Positions 868-15,734 of a stretch of 62,223 nt of DNA are shown in pieces. How positions within the stretch are numbered: the first letter of the stretch is position 1; each line of letters starts with the position of its first letter. A program made the position numbers and the translations under genes. Origin of the DNA: an uncultured Erysipelotrichaceae bacterium (lineage in GTDB: Bacteria > Bacillota_I > Bacilli_A > RF39 > UBA660); contig CADANX010000003.1 in assembly GCA_902789425.1 (NCBI GenBank), forward strand, positions 1 through 62,223. Reading direction: 5' to 3'. Under the pieces are notes generated by a model, which was given only the letters and a program-made list of their open reading frames with translations, was not told the origin of the DNA and did not search any database.

Positions 868-1141
868 TTTTAGATAAGTAGATAAGTTCTACGAAAAAAA
901 CTTACAATAAGCGAATAAAAAATTATAAATTTAAAATAAAAAACACCAACTTAAAAGGAAAAAATTACCTGGTTGTTTTAATATTTTACCATGTGGCAGT
1001 GGTAAAAAATACAAACAATGTTGTGGTAAGTAAGAAAAGTCCCATAAAATAAGGGCTTTTTTGATGCCTAAAATTAAAAATATTTTTTAGATACCTTTTT
1101 GGATACCTTCCGCTGAGTATCTAAAAGGTATCTAGATACCC
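868..1141 (+). repeat. Composite SEC-C site A
   Basis: Left arms are two overlapping TAGATAAG copies at 871-886. The next ~100 nt resemble sites C and E (GTACG-like box, then an A-rich stretch). An open frame at 935-1033 ends in PCGSGKKYKQCCGK and TAA; it has no start codon. A terminator hairpin follows (1035-1062, AAGTCCC/GGGCTT then T6). The right side is unusual: AGATACC and GGATACC (period 12, then TTCCG) are followed by inverted copies, so TAGATACCTTTT (1088-1099) pairs perfectly with AAAAGGTATCTA (1123-1134), and GATAC pairs with GTATC inside. Core to right arm is 100 nt. From 1142 to the Nudix promoter near 1318 I see nothing else. Confidence 0.7.
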
Positions 1142-1350
1142 AAAAATGGGGTGAAAATACAAAATTTTTGTACGGCTAAAAATTGCATTATTTCCTTTAT
1201 TTATAAGGCTTTGTAGGAATTTATTCAAGAAAAAAGATGAAATTGTGTCCAGTGCCAAAATGACATAGAACACTTATATTATTTATTGCTTTTTAATAAA
1301 AAAATAGTGGTTATTTGTGGTATAATATTTAAAGAAAGTGAGGTACATAT

Positions 1351-1824
1351 ATGGAAAGAGAAAAATTTCTATCTTCAATATATTTAATTATAAAAAACGA
1401 CAATGGAGAGGTTTTACTACAAAGAAGACAAGGAACAAAATTGTGGCCAGGATATCTTGCATTACCAGCAGGACATATTGATGAAGGTGAAAATGCATAC
1501 GAGGCTGCAATTAGGGAGTCGAGAGAAGAACTGGGAATAGAAATACAGGTAGAAGATATTATTGATACTTTTGTCGCAAATAGAAAAAACAAATCATTAC
1601 CACCATATTATGATGTATATTTTGAAATATCAAAATATGATGGTGATCTAAAAATAGCTGAACCTGAGAAATGTTCTGAATTAGTGTGGTGTAATCCAAG
1701 TAATTTACCTGATGATATGATAGATTTTGAAAAAGAAGCAATGAAAAATAATGCTAATGGAATTAAATTTAGCGTTACTTACGCCGATAATGAAAAGAAG
1801 TTAGTAAAAATAAAGAGTAATTAA
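1351..1824 (+). CDS. Nudix hydrolase
   Basis: A 157-residue Nudix protein, probably cleaving a nucleoside diphosphate linked to another group. The Nudix box occupies residues 41-63: G41, E47, R55-E56, E59-E60 and G62 fit GX5EX7REUXEEXGU exactly, giving the Mg-binding helix. The rest is the short alpha/beta fold of small MutT-like enzymes. It has its own promoter, with an extended -10 (TGTGGTATAAT) about 20 nt upstream and an SD-like AAAGTGAGG. It is the first gene of the module between sites A and B and is followed after 20 nt by dinD. Substrate is unknown. Confidence 0.9.
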   Translation: MEREKFLSSIYLIIKNDNGEVLLQRRQGTKLWPGYLALPAGHIDEGENAYEAAIRESREELGIEIQVEDIIDTFVANRKNKSLPPYYDVYFEISKYDGDLKIAEPEKCSELVWCNPSNLPDDMIDFEKEAMKNNANGIKFSVTYADNEKKLVKIKSN

Positions 1825-1844
1825 ATATATATAGGAGGTTTTGA

Positions 1845-2669
1845 ATGAATAGTATAGAGCAATACACTGAAAAGACTTTTGAAAATATTAAACATATTGA
1901 CGAATATGGAAATGAATATTGGGAAGCAAGGGAATTGATGCCATTACTTGAATATAGTAAATGGGAGAATTTCCATAAAGTAATTAAGAGGGCTATGATT
2001 GCATGTCAAACCAGTAATAATAATATTTTAGATCACTTTCCTGAATTCAGGAAACCGATAGTAGGTGGAAAAGGCAATGTTCAAAATGTTATAGATTATC
2101 ATTTATCTAGATATGCTTGCTATTTAATTGTACAAAATGCTAATCCTAGAAAAAAGTCAGTAGCGTTAGGCCAAACTTATTTTGCCATACAAACTAGAAA
2201 ACAAGAGATTACCGAAATAGAGTATTCTAAATTATCAGAAGATGAAAAAAGATTATATACTAGAATTTTAGTTAATAATAAAAATAAGTATTTATTTAAA
2301 ACAGCAAAAGAGGCAGGCGTAGAAAATTTTGGCAAGTTTAATAATTTTGGATATAGAGGTCTTTATAATGGTGAAACTGCTAAACAAATTGCTAAACGAA
2401 AAAATATAAATGAAAACGAAGATATTCTCGATTATATGGGAAGTGAGGAATTGGGTGCCAATTTGTTCCGTATAACTCAAACGGAGGCTAAGTTAAAAAA
2501 AGATAATATAGATAATGAAGCTGCTGCATGTCAAACTCATTATAATGTAGGAAAAACTGTAAGAAAGGCAATTGAAGAGCTTGGCGGTAATATGCCTGAA
2601 ACACTACCAACTCCAGAAAAGTCCATAAAGGAATTAGAAAAAGAAGAATTGAAAAAAATAGCAAATTAA
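1845..2669 (+). CDS. dinD: DNA damage-inducible protein D-like (BRO-N family)
   Basis: This 274-residue protein has the same length as E. coli DinD and matches its landmarks: an early YWEARELMPLLEY segment (BRO-N/antirepressor fold), the invariant stretch LSRYACYLIVQNANPRKK, GQTYFAIQTRKQE, DYMGSEELGANLFRITQTE, and the ending ELGGNMPETLPTPEKS. In E. coli DinD is LexA-regulated and affects RecA filaments. No LexA-type operator is visible here; the gene follows the Nudix gene after 20 nt with a good SD (TAGGAGGTTT) and is probably co-transcribed with it. It ends about 50 nt before the left arms of site B. Confidence 0.9.
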   Translation: MNSIEQYTEKTFENIKHIDEYGNEYWEARELMPLLEYSKWENFHKVIKRAMIACQTSNNNILDHFPEFRKPIVGGKGNVQNVIDYHLSRYACYLIVQNANPRKKSVALGQTYFAIQTRKQEITEIEYSKLSEDEKRLYTRILVNNKNKYLFKTAKEAGVENFGKFNNFGYRGLYNGETAKQIAKRKNINENEDILDYMGSEELGANLFRITQTEAKLKKDNIDNEAAACQTHYNVGKTVRKAIEELGGNMPETLPTPEKSIKELEKEELKKIAN

Positions 2670-2718: not shown

Positions 2719-2994
2719 TTTTAGATACCTTTTTAGATACCTTCCGAGTAAATTCTTGGGTGCTGAGGAGTACTATCAAGTGCAAAAAAGTGCATTTAAA
2801 CGCTATAAAATGCTATCAAGTGTACTCAAAAACCCCAAATCTTTTCTCCATGTGGCAGTGGACGCAAGTATAAACAGTGTTGCGGAAAATAAGCTCGTAA
2901 AGCCTTATAAATAAAGGGCTTGCGAGCTTTTTACTACTTACAATTTTTAGGTAATTTTACCTCAAAAAAGGCGTTTAGATACGTTTTAGATACG
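2719..2994 (+). repeat. Composite SEC-C site B
   Basis: Left arms are two AGATACC copies (2723 and 2735, period 12) followed by TTCCG, 106 nt before the core. The core at 2848 reads PCGSGRKYKQCCGK then TAA (2848-2892). A strong terminator follows (2891-2932, AAGCTCG...CGAGCTT then T5). Next come a small palindrome AGGTAATTTTACCT (2949-2962) and right arms, two AGATACG copies (2977 and 2988, period 11), exactly 129 nt from the core. The region between left arms and core is like site D, not A/C/E. Just upstream, TCGAAAA/TTTTCGA (2697-2717) forms a hairpin after dinD. Confidence 0.7.
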
Positions 2995-3059
2995 TTTTTT
3001 TGCCCCGATTAGCCTTAAAATGAGGTGTGTATGATATAATTAAAAAGGAAGTGATAATT

Positions 3060-3989
3060 ATGGATAAAATTATAGATTTAATAATAAAAAACAATGAATT
3101 ATTATTTGGAACAAATCCAAGAGTTGAAAAAATAAATGTTGGATTTACAAATACTTTATACAGGGTAAATGATTCTTACATAGTCAAAGTATGCACTGAT
3201 GTGGATAATGAAGAAGAATTTAAAAAAGAAATTGCATTTTACAATTCCAATAAAGATAATAGTTTAATACCTAAGTTATACTATTCAAACACAGATAAGA
3301 TAGATGTTCCTTATTTTTATGAAATTCTTGAAAAAGTAAATGGAGTTTCGTTATATAATGTTTGGCATACTTATACAGAAGAACAAAGAGAGGATATAAT
3401 AAGACAATTATGTGACGCTATGAAACAAATGCATAGTATAAAAGGCGATAGATACAACTGGACTGAATATATGAAAAAAGAATTTAATCCCTTATATGAA
3501 AAAGCTAAGGAATTAAATATTTTTAGTGATGAAGAACAACAATTGTTAGAACAGGCATATTCAGATTTTGATAAATATCTTGAATCCGATGAGTTTGTTT
3601 TAGTACATAATGATCTTCACTTTGATAATATATTTATAGATAATGGAAGAATCAAAATAATAGATTTTGAAAGATCAATGTATGCACCAAGAGATTTTGA
3701 ATTAGATATATTTTATAGAATGATAAGAAAACCATGGAAGTTTGCTAGTGAAGAAACAGAAGAATATACAGAAGCAGGTCAGTATTCAAATATAATGTCA
3801 TATGTTAATAGATATTATCCGGAAATAGTTAATACTCCAAATTTGTATGAAAGATTAGGAATATATGATATAGTTTATTTTTTAGCACAGTTAGTAAGAC
3901 ATCCTGAATTAGATGAATTAAAAAAAGATGTATTATCAGCTGCTAAAATTGTTACTTCAAGGGATAAAAATATTATAAAAAAGTGGTGA
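3060..3989 (+). CDS. Aminoglycoside phosphotransferase/choline kinase-like protein
   Basis: A 309-residue APH-fold kinase. The catalytic loop is HNDLHFDN at residues 183-190 (D185 base, N190 metal) and the Mg-binding DFE is at residue 202. The N-lobe has the short nucleotide-binding strands with IVKV and the Glu of the C-helix region. I chose the ATG at 3060, not the GTG at 3027, because the longer frame would run through the promoter -10 (GATATAAT, 3033-3040); AAGGAAG lies 8 nt before the ATG. It heads the module between sites B and C. Antibiotic resistance is possible but a small-molecule or homoserine/choline kinase role is equally likely. Confidence 0.85.
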   Translation: MDKIIDLIIKNNELLFGTNPRVEKINVGFTNTLYRVNDSYIVKVCTDVDNEEEFKKEIAFYNSNKDNSLIPKLYYSNTDKIDVPYFYEILEKVNGVSLYNVWHTYTEEQREDIIRQLCDAMKQMHSIKGDRYNWTEYMKKEFNPLYEKAKELNIFSDEEQQLLEQAYSDFDKYLESDEFVLVHNDLHFDNIFIDNGRIKIIDFERSMYAPRDFELDIFYRMIRKPWKFASEETEEYTEAGQYSNIMSYVNRYYPEIVNTPNLYERLGIYDIVYFLAQLVRHPELDELKKDVLSAAKIVTSRDKNIIKKW

Positions 3990-3993
3990 TGAT

Positions 3994-4314
3994 ATGAATC
4001 CTATTGAAAAAGAAATTATAGAATTTAGTATATTAAAAGAACTATCGTATAATTGTAATGTTCCAACTTCCAAAAATTATAATATTGATGAAGACTCTTA
4101 TGTATCCTTATTTAGAGATATGGTCAATAAACATTTTATAAACCCCAAAAGAGTATTGTTTAACATTTTAGGTTGTGTACAAATTGAAAACAAACTTGAT
4201 TTAGTTACAAGTATAGGGAATCAATTTATTGAATCACATGAAGGGTGGAATAAAATATATAATGATTTAAATGATTTAAATAAACTTCTAGACAAGGAGG
4301 TAAAGAATGATTGA
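3994..4314 (+). CDS. Small hypothetical protein, possibly YjcQ-like
   Basis: A 106-residue soluble protein with no motif I can name firmly. Size, the N-terminal NPIEKEIIEFSILKEL helix, a central strand pair (ILGCVQIENK) and the final helix resemble the small winged-helix YjcQ family found in prophages, but this is a weak resemblance. It starts 4 nt after the kinase gene stop, and its stop overlaps the start of the next small gene (SD AAGGAGG inside its last codons), so the four genes of this module read as one operon. Confidence 0.6.
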   Translation: MNPIEKEIIEFSILKELSYNCNVPTSKNYNIDEDSYVSLFRDMVNKHFINPKRVLFNILGCVQIENKLDLVTSIGNQFIESHEGWNKIYNDLNDLNKLLDKEVKND

Positions 4315-4477
4315 TTTTATACAAAGTAATTGGAAAGATTTGTTAGAAATCTTTATTAGTTTAATTATAGGATTTTTAGGTGGTATTACTTTTACAAATG
4401 TTAAAAGTAAAAACAGTTCTAAGATAAAAGGAAATAATAATACAGTAATTCAAAAAGGAAGTAAGTATAATGAATAA
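4307..4477 (+). CDS. Small single-pass membrane protein with C-terminal GNNNTV motif
   Basis: This 56-codon gene starts at an ATG with a near-perfect SD (AAGGAGG, 7 nt away) and overlaps both neighbours by 8 nt. Residues 12-34 form one hydrophobic segment (LLEIFISLIIGFLGGIT). The tail carries IKGNNNTVIQKG. The same motif, IKGNDNIVNQ, opens the next protein, so the pair share a short Asn/Gly-rich element at the end of one and the start of the other. Function is unknown. Translation coupling and the shared motif argue that it is real in spite of its size. Confidence 0.7.
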   Translation: MIDFIQSNWKDLLEIFISLIIGFLGGITFTNVKSKNSSKIKGNNNTVIQKGSKYNE

Positions 4478-4856
4478 GAAAAATGAAGTTAACATTAAAG
4501 GCAATGATAATATAGTTAATCAAATAGAGAAGCAAGTAAATTTTTATAATTTTAATAATTCAAATGAATATCTTCCGGATGAATATGCTTCTAAACTTTT
4601 GAAGGAAACTATTGAAGATGAAAAAAATCCTACAATTATTTATGTAAAAACGCTTAGTGGTCGCACAATACAATGTGGTTCTGCTAGATTTTCAGTAGGA
4701 TCATCATCAAAAACTGAAAGGGAAATGTCATACTGGGAAGATGCTTTAAGAAAACTTGAAGATTACAATTATATATCTGATGTTGGTTATAAAGGAGAAG
4801 TGTTTAAAATAACAAAAAAAGGCTATGATTATTATGATGCTTATTTAAATAAATAA
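4470..4856 (+). CDS. Hypothetical protein with N-terminal IKGNDNIV motif and C-terminal winged-helix-like domain
   Basis: A 128-residue protein. Residues 6-16 carry the IKGNDNIVNQ motif shared with the tail of the preceding small membrane protein. A linker follows, then a domain of roughly residues 70-128 (EDALRKLEDYNYISDVGYKG, then FKITKKGYDYYDAY) that looks like the helix-wing end of a winged-helix domain used as a C-terminal module in phage and defence proteins. Its TAA stop is immediately followed by the left arms of site C, with no separate terminator. I do not recognise a specific family. Confidence 0.65.
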   Translation: MNKKNEVNIKGNDNIVNQIEKQVNFYNFNNSNEYLPDEYASKLLKETIEDEKNPTIIYVKTLSGRTIQCGSARFSVGSSSKTEREMSYWEDALRKLEDYNYISDVGYKGEVFKITKKGYDYYDAYLNK

Positions 4857-5128
4857 TTTTAGATACGTTTTTAGATACGTTGTACGAAAAAAACTTGCAA
4901 TTATTAGATAAAAAATTATAGATTTTGAATAAAAAAGTCCACTTTAAAAGGAAAAAATTACTCGGTTGTTTTAATTTTTTACCATGTGGCAGTGGTAAAA
5001 AATATAAACAATGTTGTGGCAAATAAGCTCGCAAACACGCATAAAATAAGGGGAAACGCGAGTTTTTTCTTTGCTAAAAAATTGCGAGTTTATATGTTTT
5101 GAACCACTTTAGATACCTTTTAGATACC
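4857..5128 (+). repeat. Composite SEC-C site C
   Basis: Left arms are two AGATACG copies (4861 and 4873, period 12) followed by TTGTACG, directly abutting the previous stop codon and 102 nt before the core. The open frame runs from 4922 to 5026 and includes HFKRKKLLGCFNFL before PCGSGKKYKQCCGK; it has no ATG or GTG. A terminator (AAGCTCGC / GCGAGTTTTTT) ends near 5067. Right arms are two AGATACC copies (5111 and 5122, period 11), exactly 129 nt from the core. The next promoter -10 (GATATAAT) lies near 5170-5177. Confidence 0.7.
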
Positions 5129-5195
5129 TTTTTCTGTTTTTTTTAAATGAAATTATGAATACAAAACATGATATAATAGTATTGGAGTTGATACA

Positions 5196-6242
5196 ATGAG
5201 TAAATATGTTAGAGTAATGGATGGATTGAAATCTAATGCTGGTGGATTTGAATATAAAATTGATGAAGTTAATGTTACCGATAATTGTAATCCTAACAGT
5301 TTAGAAACTGAAGAAATGGGGGGATTTAATTTTGGTACTGAAGATAAGATTCTAAGATGGTTACATAGAGGAGACACTATTTATGATGTTATAATTCCTG
5401 ATGATGCAGAAGTGATTAAGGTTGATGATGAAAAAGGCGTATATAGATCAAACAAAATCATTGTAACTAATCCAAGAAAAGTAACGGATAATATGGTAAT
5501 AGAATTATACAAAAAAAGTACTTTATCAAATAAAATAGTTGCTCAATGTTTATTAACACTAATATGGAAAAATAGAATAGAAATATCTAAGTATATAATT
5601 AAAGATAGAGTCAAATTAGATAATGCTGATGAAATATTAGAAGAATTTGTTAATTATGCTGGTGACAAGAATTTAGCATATGAAAGCACTCAGGAAATAT
5701 ATAATATTTTAAAAGAAATACAAAGTCCAATTGATATAAGTTTATATGTTGATAAAGAACCATATATTAAAGATTTGACAAATGATAAAATCATCAACTT
5801 AACAGGACAAAGTGGATCAGGTAAATCTGATACTGATGAAATATTATCTGAACATAGATTTGAAAATAGCAATGGTATTAATAAAGAATTAGGGAAATAT
5901 TTTAGAAGCAAATATAAAGAGTTACCCAATTGTGGGGATGATTTTGATCTAATATATACTGAGATATTAGAGTATTGTAAAAAATATGATAAAACAATTG
6001 TTATTGATTGCGCGCAGTTTCATTGCATTAAAGATATCAATCTTTTAAAGGGAAAAATAATTATAATTAGAACTTGCATTGATACTTGTTACAATAGGAC
6101 TATAAGTAGATTTAAAGACAATAATCCGAATTATATAGATGAAGAATTAGAAAAATATATGGAGAGAAAGAAAGCAATATTTAAATGGTATAAATTTTCA
6201 AATGAATTTATAGAAAAAATTGATAAGATAAGTAGTTGCTAA
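5196..6242 (+). CDS. Two-domain protein: unknown N-terminal domain plus P-loop kinase
   Basis: A 348-residue protein. Residues 1-100 form a beta-rich domain starting YVRVMDGLKSNAGGFEY and ending with IIVTNPRKV, similar in layout to small DUF7666-type domains that mark cargo proteins of accessory regions. Residues 198-348 are a P-loop NTPase: Walker A GQSGSGKS at 204-211, a Walker B-like strand TIVIDCAQ, then IIIIRTCIDTCYNRTISRF, which resembles the LID/base-recognition part of nucleoside and shikimate-type kinases. A nucleotide or metabolite kinase is likely; the substrate is unknown. It is the only gene of the module between sites C and D. Confidence 0.7.
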   Translation: MSKYVRVMDGLKSNAGGFEYKIDEVNVTDNCNPNSLETEEMGGFNFGTEDKILRWLHRGDTIYDVIIPDDAEVIKVDDEKGVYRSNKIIVTNPRKVTDNMVIELYKKSTLSNKIVAQCLLTLIWKNRIEISKYIIKDRVKLDNADEILEEFVNYAGDKNLAYESTQEIYNILKEIQSPIDISLYVDKEPYIKDLTNDKIINLTGQSGSGKSDTDEILSEHRFENSNGINKELGKYFRSKYKELPNCGDDFDLIYTEILEYCKKYDKTIVIDCAQFHCIKDINLLKGKIIIIRTCIDTCYNRTISRFKDNNPNYIDEELEKYMERKKAIFKWYKFSNEFIEKIDKISSC

Positions 6243-6271: not shown

Positions 6272-6545
6272 TTTAGATACCTTTTTAGATACCTTCCGGT
6301 CAAACTCCGGGGTGCTGTCGGAAGCTACCAAGTGCATTCAATAGCCAAAAAGTGCTACAAAATGCTCTCAAGAACTCCCAAAAACCCCAAATTAAAAGCC
6401 ATGTGGAAGTGGACGCAAGTATAAAATGTGCCATGGTAAATAAGCCTACAAACCCGCATAAAATAAGGGATTACGGGCTTTTTCTTGATTACAATTTTTA
6501 GGTAATTTCACCTCAAAAAAGGTGTTTAGATAAGTTTTAGATAAG
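6272..6545 (+). repeat. Composite SEC-C site D
   Basis: Left arms are two AGATACC copies (6275 and 6287, period 12) followed by TTCCGG, 105 nt before the core. The core at 6399-6443 reads PCGSGRKYKMCHGK then TAA: the Cys-Cys of other copies is Cys-His here, the other allowed SEC-C zinc ligand. An in-frame TAA lies just upstream of the core. A terminator follows (AAGCC...GGGCTTTTT, to about 6483). A palindrome AGGT...ACCT and right arms, two AGATAAG copies (6528 and 6539, period 11), follow, exactly 129 nt from the core. It is close to site B over its whole length. Confidence 0.7.
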
Positions 6546-6659
6546 TTTTTTTGATCAATAGAAGCGCTTTTTAATCATAAAATTTGTATTAACGTGAACA
6601 AACATATTAATGTTAGAATATTAGTTGTTTGTGATATAATTATTAGAAGGAGGGATACA

Positions 6660-7207: not shown

Positions 7208-7455
7208 TTTTTTAGATAAGTTATTAGATAAGTTGTACGAAAAAAACTTACAATAAATGAATAAAAAATTATAAATTTTAAATAAAAAATACCAATTTAA
7301 AAGGAAAAAATTATCTGGTTGTTTTAATATTTTACCATGTGGCTCTGGTCGCAAATATAAGCAGTGCTGCGGAAAGTAAGTAAAATCAAGGGTTTGCGAA
7401 AATCCGAAAGTGAAGAAATGTGAAAAAACGTGAATTAGATACTTTTTAGATACCC
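7208..7455 (+). repeat. Composite SEC-C site E
   Basis: Left arms are two AGATAAG copies (7214 and 7226, period 12) followed by TTGTACG, 102 nt before the core. The frame reads QFKRKKLSGCFNIL then PCGSGRKYKQCCGK and TAA (core 7335-7379). Compared with sites A and C, it uses TCT in place of AGT for Ser and CGC for AAA, with other third-base changes. There is no clear terminator straight after the stop. Right arms are AGATACT and AGATACC (7437 and 7448, period 11), 102 nt from the core, and are followed by CCCTGAAA and a terminator at 7471-7506. Confidence 0.7.
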
Positions 7456-11633: not shown

Positions 11634-14600
11634 ATGAATAGCAATTTTTATAAGAAAATAATTATTTTTATGATAGCATTTTTAGCTACTTTTGCATTTG
11701 CAACTGAAAATTTTACATATATAAATGCACATGCAGAAGAAACAACTGATGCAGAGCAAGCAGAAGCAGATGCTCAAGATGCCGCAGATGAAGATTTAGA
11801 AGATGAAGAGGATAATAATAGTTCTATAAATACTGATATAGGTGACATAGAAGATATTGATGATGTTGATTATCTAGATAGATTAGATAATGATATGGAT
11901 GCAGATGGCGATGATATACAAGCGTTAGATATGGGAGCATCTGATTCAGATACTAAAGCATCTTGTTCAAAACCAAAAATCATTTGTCCTTCAAAATATT
12001 CCTATATTACAGTATCAGGACAACAAGTTAGCGTAACAAATAGGGTAACAATAGGAAAAGATAGTAAGATATTTCCTGTAAGATTTACAAGAGATTATAG
12101 TTATTTATTTTTTAGTGTTAAATCTGGTGGATCATCTTATGTAAGTGTTAATAGTTCCACTGGTCAAGTAAAAGGTTTAAAAGCAACAGGAAATAATAAG
12201 GTATATATAACAGTAAGTGCAACAGTAGATGGTAAAACATATTCAAAGAATTGCCAAGTAAGAGTTTATAAAGAAAAAAGTAAATATGCAGAAACAGATG
12301 AAGTAATAAAAACATCAAATGCAGCAGTAGATGCATTTAAAGTTGAAGCAACAGCTCCATGTAGTGGAACAGGTGTTGTAAACGATGGCGGTGGAAGTGT
12401 TACATGTAAAAATATAACAATTACAAAAGGTAAGACTAAAACAGTTTATTCTAAGAAAAATGGAGTAATAAAACCAAATGCAAAAGTGTTTACAACAAAA
12501 ATTAAGAATAAAAATATTAAAAGTGTAACAGTAAAATTAATAAATAATTCAAAAAAGAATGTAGCTAAACAAAGTTCTGGTAAAAAACTAAAGGGAAATA
12601 AGGCTGGAACAATTAACTACCAAATAGTAGTAAAAAAGAAAAAAGGTAGTGAATATAGTAGTGGAACATGTACTATAAAAGTAAAAAAGAAAAGCTCAAA
12701 AAAATCATCTAAAACTACTAAAAAGAAGTCTAAAAAAACAAAGAAAAAAACATCTAAGAAATCTAGCAAGAAAACAAAGAAAAAATCTAGTAAAAAAACA
12801 TCAAAGAAGAAAAAATCATCAAAGAAAACTACTAAAAAGAATTCAAAGAAAAATAATAAATCAAGTAGTAAGAATAAAACATATCCAGCTCCATCCGTTT
12901 CATATACTATAAATGAAGGTACTGGTGATGTAACTTATAAAATTAAATTTAAATATAATGTAAAAGATGCAACCAAAATGGTAGTTAAATGTAAATCAAT
13001 TAAAACAAACAATTCTTGGATTTATCCTGACGCTAGCGGTATAAGTGGAAAAAATTGGCCAAAGAAAAGTAGTAGTAAAACTTATATTACAAGTGGAGGA
13101 GCAACAGCAACATGTAAATTTGTTGCTCATTATAAAGATGGTAAATCTGACCCAACTACATTAAAAATTTCGGCATCAAATATTAAAAAGAAAAAGAGTG
13201 GATCAAGTAAAACTTCTCCAAATTCTATAACTATAAGTCATTTAAGTTCAAAAATGAATGTTGGTGACAGAGTAACAGCTGTTGCAAATATAACTCCAAC
13301 TACAGCTAGTCAAAAAGTTAAATGGTCATCAAGTAATAAGAGTGTTGCAACAGTATCTGCACAAGGTGAAGTTGTAGCTAAAAAAGCAGGAACAGTTAAA
13401 ATAACAGCAACTTCAAGTAGTAATAAAGATGTTAAGAAAACTAAAACTATTAAAGTATCAAAATCAATAGCAGGATTATCTACAACTGATACGAGCGTAG
13501 TTCTTCCTGAAACTATAAATGTTAGTGTTAAAGGAACTAAAACAATTAATGCAAAACTAATGCCTTCTAACACTAGTGATAATAAAGTATTAACATGGAA
13601 ATCAAGTGATAATAAAATAGTTACAGTATCAAGTAAAGGTGTAATAACTGGTATAAAAAAAGGAACAGCAACAATAACAGCAACAATTCCATCAAATGGA
13701 TACAGTGCTTCAACAACAGTTACTGTTGGTGATACAGTTAATGTTTCAAGTGTAACAGCAAGCCCAAGCAGTATGAAAATTGGTGTTGGAGAAAACAAAA
13801 CAATAATGGTAACTGTTTCACCTGCAAATTCTTCAACAAGAGCAGTTACATACAAATCAAGTGATAAAAAAATAGCATCTGTCTCTTCAAATGGACAAGT
13901 TTCTGGTAACAAAAAAGGAACAGCAACAATTACTATTACATCAAAAAATGATACTACTAAGAAAGCTAAAGTAAAAGTAACTGTTACTAAATTAAATACT
14001 GATGTTTCTGATATAACTGACTTTACTATGGATGAAAGCATGAATCTTGAAAGAGGTCAAAGTAATAAATTAACAATTAATGGTATAAATCCTAAAGTAA
14101 TTACATTTAGTGTTGATAATAAGATCATAACTGTTGATAGTGACGGAACAGTAAATGCTATTAAAATGGGAACAGCAACAATAACTGCAAAAGCAGGTAA
14201 CTTTGTGAAAACATGTCTTGTAACAGTATCTAACAAAGTGAATGTTTCTGATGTTACTGTAAATGGTTCGACAAACACTATAGGAAAGGGACAAAGTGTA
14301 ACATTAATTGCAACAGTGGCACCAGAAAATGCAACAAATAATAGTATAAAATGGTCAACAAGTGATAAAAAAATAGCAACTGTTAAAGATGGTGTTGTTA
14401 CAGGTGTTAAAAAAGGAACAGCAACTATAACTGTTACATCTAAATCTGATACTACTAAAAAAGCAACATTTGACATTAATGTAGTTAACGAGCAAGTTAA
14501 ATTAGATGAAGAAGTAAAAGAAGAAGTTAATGATGGAAAATGGGAAAATAATCCAAACGATACAAGTGAATACACAACAACACTTCAAGTTGGTAACACA

Positions 14601-15734
14601 ACTTATGCTCCATGGCATGAAGATGGAACATATAGTAAAATTGCTGATCAATTTGAGATTGTTGTATTAAATAAAGAAGTTGCAGATATAGATGATGATG
14701 ATTTAATTTCTGCAAACAATGTGGGAACTGCTGTTATCGAATTAAGAAGAAAAGAGGTTACAACTACAGAAGAGGAAACAAATTTAACTGAATCAACAAC
14801 TTCTGAAAGTACTGAACAAACAAGTCAAGAAACGACACAAACTACTACTAAACAAACAAATGATAATAATGTTGTTGAAAGATTAACAATTACTGTTGTA
14901 GAGAAAAAACAAGAAACTACTACGAGTTCAATTGATGGTACTACTGAAACTAATAATACAGCAAACACACCAAAATCTAATCCAAAATCAATAAGCATTA
15001 CAATAAAAAGTAAAAAAATAACAGTTAAAAAATCAAGAACTGCTAAAGCAACAGTTAGTCCAAGTAGTGCTTCTCAAACAGTTAAATGGTCAACAAGTAA
15101 TAAAAAAGTAGCTACTGTTACAAAATATGGTAAGATTGTAGGTAAGAAAGTTGGAACAGCAACAATAACAGCTACTTCAACTACAGATTCAAAAGTTAAG
15201 AAAAGTATAAAAATTACAGTTAAAAAAGCATCTAAAAAGAAAACATCTTCAAGTAGTTCAACTAGTTCTTCAACAGGATCATCTAGTTCTTCTACTGGAG
15301 GATCTACTATAACAACAACTAGTACAAGTACAACAACTGGCGTAGCATCTCCAACTTGCCCTGAAGGTGTTGCAGAATCACAATATTCTGAATATTGTAG
15401 TGTTAAAACAGGTTCAAAATATGTGTGTCCAAATGATTATTATTCTACTGGAGGAAGTACACCATTGTGTAAAAAGACTGAAGAAACAACAGCTTTAGTT
15501 GAACATTCAGAATTAAAGCCAATTTCTTCAGATGCAATAAGAATAAATTCAACAGGTAATTGGTATTATTGTAGTTACGGTAAAATTAAAACTGATAGTA
15601 CAACAGGAGAATATAAATGTACTAGTGTTGTAACAAAAGGTTCTAAAAAAGAAAATACTTTTAAAAAAGTAAAAAAAGTTTGTTCAACAGGTACTTTAAC
15701 ACATAATGCTAATGGTGTTGTTGTTTGTCAATAA
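11634..15734 (+). CDS. Large secreted protein with bacterial Ig-like (BIG2) repeats
   Basis: A 1,366-residue surface or secreted protein. Residues 1-34 are a signal peptide ending NAHA. An acidic segment (35-105) is followed by a divergent Ig-like domain, then a 65-residue Lys/Ser tract (about 349-416), another beta domain, and a run of at least six BIG2 domains. These are marked by repeated WSSSNKSVATVS and GVVTGVKKGTATITVTS-type motifs up to about residue 1200. A Ser/Thr linker and a Cys-containing C-terminal region (about 1240-1366) end the protein. There is no LPXTG motif, so attachment may be ionic through the Lys-rich tract. BIG2 domains are common in adhesins. Confidence 0.88.
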   Translation: MNSNFYKKIIIFMIAFLATFAFATENFTYINAHAEETTDAEQAEADAQDAADEDLEDEEDNNSSINTDIGDIEDIDDVDYLDRLDNDMDADGDDIQALDMGASDSDTKASCSKPKIICPSKYSYITVSGQQVSVTNRVTIGKDSKIFPVRFTRDYSYLFFSVKSGGSSYVSVNSSTGQVKGLKATGNNKVYITVSATVDGKTYSKNCQVRVYKEKSKYAETDEVIKTSNAAVDAFKVEATAPCSGTGVVNDGGGSVTCKNITITKGKTKTVYSKKNGVIKPNAKVFTTKIKNKNIKSVTVKLINNSKKNVAKQSSGKKLKGNKAGTINYQIVVKKKKGSEYSSGTCTIKVKKKSSKKSSKTTKKKSKKTKKKTSKKSSKKTKKKSSKKTSKKKKSSKKTTKKNSKKNNKSSSKNKTYPAPSVSYTINEGTGDVTYKIKFKYNVKDATKMVVKCKSIKTNNSWIYPDASGISGKNWPKKSSSKTYITSGGATATCKFVAHYKDGKSDPTTLKISASNIKKKKSGSSKTSPNSITISHLSSKMNVGDRVTAVANITPTTASQKVKWSSSNKSVATVSAQGEVVAKKAGTVKITATSSSNKDVKKTKTIKVSKSIAGLSTTDTSVVLPETINVSVKGTKTINAKLMPSNTSDNKVLTWKSSDNKIVTVSSKGVITGIKKGTATITATIPSNGYSASTTVTVGDTVNVSSVTASPSSMKIGVGENKTIMVTVSPANSSTRAVTYKSSDKKIASVSSNGQVSGNKKGTATITITSKNDTTKKAKVKVTVTKLNTDVSDITDFTMDESMNLERGQSNKLTINGINPKVITFSVDNKIITVDSDGTVNAIKMGTATITAKAGNFVKTCLVTVSNKVNVSDVTVNGSTNTIGKGQSVTLIATVAPENATNNSIKWSTSDKKIATVKDGVVTGVKKGTATITVTSKSDTTKKATFDINVVNEQVKLDEEVKEEVNDGKWENNPNDTSEYTTTLQVGNTTYAPWHEDGTYSKIADQFEIVVLNKEVADIDDDDLISANNVGTAVIELRRKEVTTTEEETNLTESTTSESTEQTSQETTQTTTKQTNDNNVVERLTITVVEKKQETTTSSIDGTTETNNTANTPKSNPKSISITIKSKKITVKKSRTAKATVSPSSASQTVKWSTSNKKVATVTKYGKIVGKKVGTATITATSTTDSKVKKSIKITVKKASKKKTSSSSSTSSSTGSSSSSTGGSTITTTSTSTTTGVASPTCPEGVAESQYSEYCSVKTGSKYVCPNDYYSTGGSTPLCKKTEETTALVEHSELKPISSDAIRINSTGNWYYCSYGKIKTDSTTGEYKCTSVVTKGSKKENTFKKVKKVCSTGTLTHNANGVVVCQ

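Follow-up and report, generated by a model that had tools for sequence, protein, structure and literature searches.

A shared Asn/Gly-rich peptide across a gene junction as a candidate pairing tag between a winged-helix-like protein and a small membrane protein

Introduction

The closest described systems to the gene pair reported here are those built on bacterial amyloid signalling sequences (BASS), for which the cited part of PMC7889193 describes a motif carried C-terminally by one protein and N-terminally by its neighbour. In the RHIM, fungal PP and BASS3 motifs, the core is given as G-(I,V)-Q-(I,V)-G in the cited part of PMC7885112. Two further kinds of protein enter the comparison, namely the conflict-system proteins in which a Ser/Thr/Tyr kinase domain is joined to a wHTH, as described in part of PMC7159879 and possibly with another wHTH than the one met below, and the abortive-infection protein AbiTii, whose mode of action is called enigmatic in a passage of PMC3710099. 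Portions of PMC12261475 and PMC8195603 are also cited beside the reading of such tags.

Here we analyse a window, meaning the whole stretch of 62,223 nucleotides of contig CADANX010000003.1 from an uncultured Erysipelotrichaceae bacterium, in which a 56-residue predicted membrane protein (P0001) and the 128-residue protein encoded next to it (P0002) share an Asn/Gly-rich peptide in the geometry described for BASS, as the first-pass annotation had pointed out. We consider that there is about an even chance that this peptide acts as a homotypic, cognate tag for pairing, of the Asn/Gly type that forms beta structure, and joins a winged-helix-like protein to a membrane partner.

Results

The motif shared by the two neighbouring proteins is real, both peptides being present and in frame (Table 1). 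The initial wording, that one protein ends in the motif and the next begins with it, is right in placing the copies near the termini and slightly loose in that 7 residues (KGSKYNE) separate the first from the stop and 8 (MNKKNEVN) precede the second. P0001, with the sequence MIDFIQSNWKDLLEIFISLIIGFLGGITFTNVKSKNSSKIKGNNNTVIQKGSKYNE, is a predicted single-pass membrane protein, in agreement with the earlier description; its single-sequence model has a helix at residues 2-34 and a coiled tail at 35-56 (pLDDT 52-57 in the tail blocks), and hydropathy reaches its maximum of 2.06 at residues 12-30. The Lys-rich side following the helix suggests, by the positive-inside rule, a cytoplasmic C-terminus, and the length of 56 residues is short for a BELL domain. 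No family was assigned to P0001 in Pfam (E up to 1), NCBIfam or PADLOC, and tblastn gave no match; PHROG matches at E 0.077 and 0.1 were put down to chance.

Table 1. Positions of the features discussed (window numbering, except that loci with an L number are numbered on their own records)
Feature	Position	Strand	Basis
Left boundary repeat of cassette	2720..3002	+	paired TTAGATAC repeats around untranslated SEC-C-like remnant
APH-fold phosphotransferase, 309 residues, first of four-gene run	3060..3989	+	Pfam APH E 2.7e-24
P0003, 106-residue protein	3994..4314	+	ORF; overlaps P0001 gene by 8 bases
P0001, 56-residue single-pass membrane protein with C-terminal tag	4307..4477	+	ORF, translation, model, hydropathy
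Predicted transmembrane helix of P0001, residues 12-30	4340..4396	+	hydropathy, model
C-terminal tag IKGNNNTVIQ	4424-4453	+	within P0001 ORF
P0002, 128 residues, N-terminal tag and winged-helix-like domain	4470..4856	+	ORF, model, VIA-align
N-terminal tag IKGNDNIVNQ	4494-4523	+	within P0002 ORF
Winged-helix-like domain of P0002, residues 34-128	4569..4853	+	VIA-align
Right boundary repeat of cassette	4857..5136	+	repeat comparison
L134, AbiTii gene with matched-tag membrane protein gene	985-1862	-	pair scan of genome_contigs
L331, XRE-type repressor and neighbour, matched GNNN..AGRD tags	5329-6118	-	viral pair scan
L003, kinase with conserved N-terminal region and winged-helix-like C-terminus	1501-2985	-
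L004, kinase with conserved N-terminal region and winged-helix-like C-terminus	268-1824	+

The downstream protein P0002, which starts MNKKNEVNIKGNDNIVNQ, is winged-helix-like according to VIA-align, as had been proposed. Its model (mean pLDDT 73) is confident over an alpha/beta C-terminal part and of low confidence over the N-terminal part (residues 1-30 averaging 42, 54 and 51 by block), and many winged-helix chains, 1stz, MepR, MarR and RosR among them, rank at the top with Z up to 8.2 over ~77 residues, Z near 8 being common for models without a clear match. Foldseek alone returned no match to the model at E<=0.001, and no known fold is claimed from it. Pfam searches (E up to 1) gave only a weak DUF5580_C match and no NTPase or repeat family, that is, no NLR, while a ComGC pilin model matching residues 2-34 (window 4470-4571) at 18.8 bits with a cut-off of 75 was judged a chance hit. 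In the monomer models, the tag is coil in P0001 and low-confidence helix in P0002; beta structure at the tag is absent from them, and monomers could not show it.

Two predicted Ser/Thr kinases (L003 and L004; Pkinase E 1.1e-31 and 1.3e-32) have the same winged-helix-like domain at the C-terminus, as does a DUF4062 protein from Synechococcus (L226; 36.8 bits with a profile built without L226, in a local frame set). None of these three fused proteins carries the tag, and the sole stand-alone relative of P0002 (L002), which starts behind a stop at the end of its contig and has no visible tag, is uninformative. The best PADLOC matches of the two kinases are the defence kinases mad6, PD-T4-6 and Stk2, probably through the kinase domain. 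In the family search, 9 of 386 genomes, the own genome included, gave a match at E<=0.01; L002, L003 and L004 were kept, while L005 and L007, one 541-residue ORF read as arginyl-tRNA synthetase, and L006, L008 and L009, unrelated frames by eye, were dropped. The P0002 profile A1 matched, mostly weakly, in 6 of 385 genomes of the order and 4 of 392 of the phylum, and tblastn found five Synechococcus plasmid records (E 0.02), all copies of one plasmid, and no match in phages. The pattern searches for P0002 returned 32 stretches in genome_contigs and 4 in viral_contigs, with none confirmed in either set. No orthologue of the whole P0001/P0002 pair was found in the pattern, tblastn, family, order and phylum searches.

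The two genes overlap by 8 bases (4470-4477) and presumably constitute the end of a co-transcribed four-gene run, in which the APH gene ends 4 bases before the P0003 ORF; a ribosome-binding-like site precedes each of the three following genes, with AAGGAGG at 4294-4300 upstream of the P0001 gene and AAGGAAG at 4455-4461 upstream of that of P0002. The search for an intrinsic terminator between 2600 and 5300 gave none. P0003 has no Pfam family at E<=1 and no tblastn match; its AcrIIA4_fam match (window 3994-4314; 15.4 bits) lies far under the cut-off of 40. The run is bounded by repeats of ~280 bases, in each of which two paired direct repeats of the TTAGATAC type enclose what seems to be the remnant of a SEC-C protein end; they recur at 6272-6553 and 7210-7455, and the SEC-C-like remnant PCGSGKKYKQCCGK is present at 992 and 4985. 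For the paired 23-base repeat, the genome has six occurrences, two of them outside this contig, and the reversed control none. From these repeats, the region between ~870 and 8290 resembles a succession of single- or few-gene cassettes separated by repeats of ~170-290 bases, and the tag pair would thus travel together with the APH gene as one cassette. Of 12 genomes from the genus, 4 have the 22-base paired repeat (loci including L212, L213 and L215); it lies next to a SEC-C-like remnant again in L212 and L213 with other genes between, and may represent a site-specific integration or cassette system of the lineage. Elsewhere in the window, positions 11634-15734 encode a protein of 1366 residues that looks secreted and has Ig-like repeats as well as long stretches rich in Lys, Ser and Thr.

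The sharing of the tag is very probably more than chance. The BLOSUM62 local score between the last 25 residues of P0001 and the first 25 of P0002 is 44, the top value and unique among the 44 adjacent plus-strand ORF pairs of the window, the other 43 scoring 25 or less. This score was attained by 20 to 25 of 20,000 composition-preserving shuffles, and is thus unlikely but not astronomically so from composition alone, a modest figure attributable to the abundance of Asn and Lys in both ends. Across all six reading frames of the window, counting open stretches of at least 30 residues, the pattern [IVL]xG[NDGS][NDGS]Nx[VI] has no site other than these two, and the core DNA pattern has four sites in the 1.03-Mb genome versus seven in the reversed control, two of the four being the tags themselves, 70 bases apart at this junction. 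The paired DNA pattern was found in one of 386 family genomes, namely this one, with none in the reversed control among the matches listed. We consider that the comparison with other gene pairs, together with the independent pairs described below, weighs more than the shuffle figure.

Two independent matched pairs were obtained by scanning for two cores flanking an ATG, with the core fixed and the flanks free, a design that imposed the C-terminal-then-N-terminal geometry so that no other could be found. In an uncultured Clostridia bacterium (L134), an AbiTii gene (Pfam E 4.5e-24), whose product has the C-terminal end IGNDNSIEKSNF / TTIGNDNSIEKSNFSS, is followed by an overlapping gene for a 68-residue membrane protein that begins MGIHIGNNNNISNSNF / MGIHIGNNNNISNSNFN; this may be a two-gene abortive-infection unit. 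The membrane protein has no tblastn match, and for its AbiTii partner the count was 1 of 39 relatives, namely itself. In a viral contig (L331), an XRE-type repressor (HTH_3 E 9.9e-11) with the C-terminal end ITGNNNIIAGRD / ITGNNNIIAGRDAKK is followed by a small helical protein of 123 residues carrying IIGDNNTVAGRD near its start. All three pairs share the core G-[ND]-[ND]-N-x-[VI] and have pair-specific flanks, VxQ in the window, SNF in L134 and AGRD in L331. Outside the core, the flanks match with BLOSUM62 sums of +10, +18 and +25 in the cognate pairs, the three highest of 15 comparisons, versus -19 to +6 in the 12 cross comparisons. This cognate-specific matching in L134 and L331 leads us to favour a real pairing function. 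In these pairs, the motif is not tied to a membrane effector with the C-terminal copy, because the membrane protein of L134 has the N-terminal copy and L331 is without an obvious membrane protein.

Of the 51 matches obtained by the scan of genome_contigs, 8 were not in one frame, and only L134 was kept from these; L137 (4), L142, L145 (split acyltransferase-like frames) and L170 were dropped. In the viral contigs, the GGA scan gave 106 matches (no credible pair among the 7 not in one frame), the GGT scan 108 (5 not in one frame; L331 kept, and L291, L295 and L335 (2) dropped), the GGAGAY scan 49 (none not in one frame), and the GGTGAY scan at least 120, with one not in one frame among those listed (L458), which was ambiguous in having a second frame without an ATG ahead of the core and was left unused. 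The five scans together thus gave at least 434 matches, with 21 not in one frame and two kept among the matches listed. A single-core viral scan gave 30 loci and no pair; nine re-examined viral loci contain one unpaired core each, which is C-terminal in L193 and L209 and ~18 residues from a Met in L188, L200 and L211.

Between the two tag copies, pS is 0.56 and pN 0.19 (Fisher P 0.0016), the pN value being biased low by the pattern, which fixed the core, and identity falls to the background level in the DNA flanking the motif (8-11 of 30 and 13-16 of 45 bases). These values support, without proving, the view that the copies are old and have been kept alike at the protein level, and the high pS and low pN together with the unlike flanking DNA argue against a recent functionless duplication.

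The AbiTii family was sampled as 14 proteins, 12 from 30 plasmid records plus those of L134 and L174, and the strict core occurs in two of them. In a Rhizobium AbiTii (L219), a GNNNRV core lies inside one chain ahead of a C-terminal hydrophobic stretch; the L174 AbiTii carries a membrane helix of its own at the C-terminus (hydropathy 2.71); several others show, by eye, Asn/Gly-rich linkers at the equivalent place; and in Enterococcus (L178), the AbiTii gene overlaps a membrane-protein gene without a tag. As judged from these predicted helices, the association of AbiTii with a membrane helix is recurrent both in cis and in trans, the tag being one way to achieve it, and fusion and pairing look interchangeable. 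Since the winged-helix domain is fused to kinases and to DUF4062 where the tag is absent, a tag with its partner may take the place of a domain fusion. On a Lysinibacillus plasmid (L179; 1019-2379, +), a TIR-domain gene is directly followed by a short AbiTii gene, and on Lactococcus plasmids the TIR gene is divergent from AbiTii.

Discussion

The results described above are consistent with a pairing tag, to which, as stated, we give about an even chance. In the predicted sequence of events, the overlapping genes would yield P0001 and P0002 together, and the tail tag of P0001 would bind the matching copy on the head of P0002, where the two would form stacked beta arches. This pairing may proceed through a small, stable beta assembly or through templated cross-beta growth, of which amyloid signalling would be a special case. 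Binding would bring the winged-helix domain, a likely sensor or regulator, to the membrane partner. P0001 would then be the likely output, as a small membrane effector or as an anchor alone, and the output may be membrane damage or defence. Sequence-level support comes from the matched tags, the gene overlap, the predicted membrane helix, the winged-helix-like fold and the two unrelated pairs of the same build with their pair-specific matching; evidence against a pairing tag is that there are only three pairs in all, that the searches gave no orthologue of the window's pair, that the core also occurs unpaired, and that among AbiTii proteins the strict core is present in just two of 14 and the L178 gene overlaps a membrane-protein gene with no tag.

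The first-pass annotation had proposed amyloid signalling, with the membrane protein as effector and the winged-helix protein as its partner. In a full amyloid-signalling reading, the tag of a triggered P0002 would adopt a cross-beta state and template the tail of P0001 as in a BASS system without NLR, after which P0001 would permeabilize the membrane and the cell would be killed or arrested. The shared motif, the geometry, the predicted membrane partner, the winged-helix-like fold and the two further cognate-specific pairs uphold part of the first proposal, the geometry, adjacency, short Asn/Gly-rich motif, membrane partner and pair-specific matching being in agreement with the description in the cited parts of PMC7889193 and PMC8086366, and BASS motifs with non-BELL partners are also described in PMC7889193, as cited in part. 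Nevertheless, the NLR is absent, the RHIM/PP core is missing in all six paired proteins, Pfam gave no match for P0001 and only the weak DUF5580_C one for P0002, the host group is, as far as known, presumably neither filamentous nor multicellular, and the L331 pair has no obvious membrane protein, and we regard true amyloid signalling as unlikely. Slightly less unlikely, to our mind, is a constitutive anchor, in which the tags would form a small stable hetero-oligomer holding a regulator at the membrane and P0001 would have no toxic output. Such an anchor fits the direct fusion of AbiTii to a membrane helix in L174, the fact that P0001 is almost nothing but helix and tag, and the DNA-binding repressor found as partner in L331, although it leaves unexplained why a tagged membrane partner is encoded separately instead of being fused.

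A toxin-antitoxin-like pair, with P0001 as the toxin and the winged-helix protein as its repressor or neutralizer, is suggested by the tiny hydrophobic protein encoded beside a DNA-binding-like protein by overlapping genes in a mobile cassette. That reading alone does not explain the shared tag, and Pfam, NCBIfam and PADLOC contain no matching toxin or antitoxin family, small toxins often falling outside their coverage; we therefore hold it to be quite unlikely. The tags may also be a scar of gene fission or local duplication, left functionless after the splitting of one gene into two had duplicated a linker. All three pairs indeed straddle a gene junction, and the tag copies are identical at 24 of 30 bases, versus a best of 23 in 200 random adjacent blocks; against this, the synonymous sites have diverged, the peptide has stayed alike and identity ends at the motif edges, an observation subject to ascertainment bias, so that a scar appears very unlikely. 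Finally, chance likeness between two termini rich in Asn and Lys, the genome being AT-rich, draws on the shuffles that attain the score and on the tag pair having been picked by eye from a 62-kb window. The gap between 44 and the next best 25 among the 44 adjacent pairs and the same core in two independent pairs make this highly improbable.

Beyond the pairing tag of this locus, one may imagine a general NLR-free 'split protein' device for anti-phage defence in use across bacteria, in which a common core with pair-specific flanks would link a soluble module (winged helix, AbiTii or XRE repressor) to a separate partner, often a one-helix membrane effector, by templated stacking; in this general form the idea is a long shot. 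We recognized no description of such NLR-free tag pairs or of an AbiTii tag among the open-access papers listed by our searches. If the pairing tag is real, wiring of the amyloid or beta-tag type would reach beyond NLR systems into small modules without NLR, in a Bacillota-like lineage with a reduced genome, and would be linked to the AbiTii abortive-infection family; further cases could then be sought by a simple rule, a core with pair-specific flanks on the two sides of a gene junction.

The candidate pairing tag is worth comparing with the known systems. The kinase- and DUF4062-winged-helix conflict proteins have the same C-terminal domain as P0002 (L003, L004 and L226), but the domain is fused in one chain there. 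AbiTii, the second protein of lactococcal AbiT (PF18864), has in L134 a relative bearing the same kind of C-terminal tag, whereas P0001, P0002 and P0003 show no PF18864 match (Pfam E<=1, PADLOC E<=0.1). The tags resemble the RHIM, fungal PP and BASS3 motifs in being short and Asn/Gly-rich with hydrophobic residues alternating with polar ones, although the central G-phi-Q-phi-G core is found in none of the six paired proteins. Unlike the BASS pairs, the window has a 128-residue winged-helix-like protein in the place of an NLR and a membrane partner of only 56 residues. Nevertheless, like BASS 1-10 of the BELL/NLR pairs, as far as the cited part of PMC7889193 describes them, adjacent and overlapping genes of the window share a short Asn/Gly-rich motif, C-terminal in the first product and N-terminal in the second, and one of the two products is a small membrane-helix partner.
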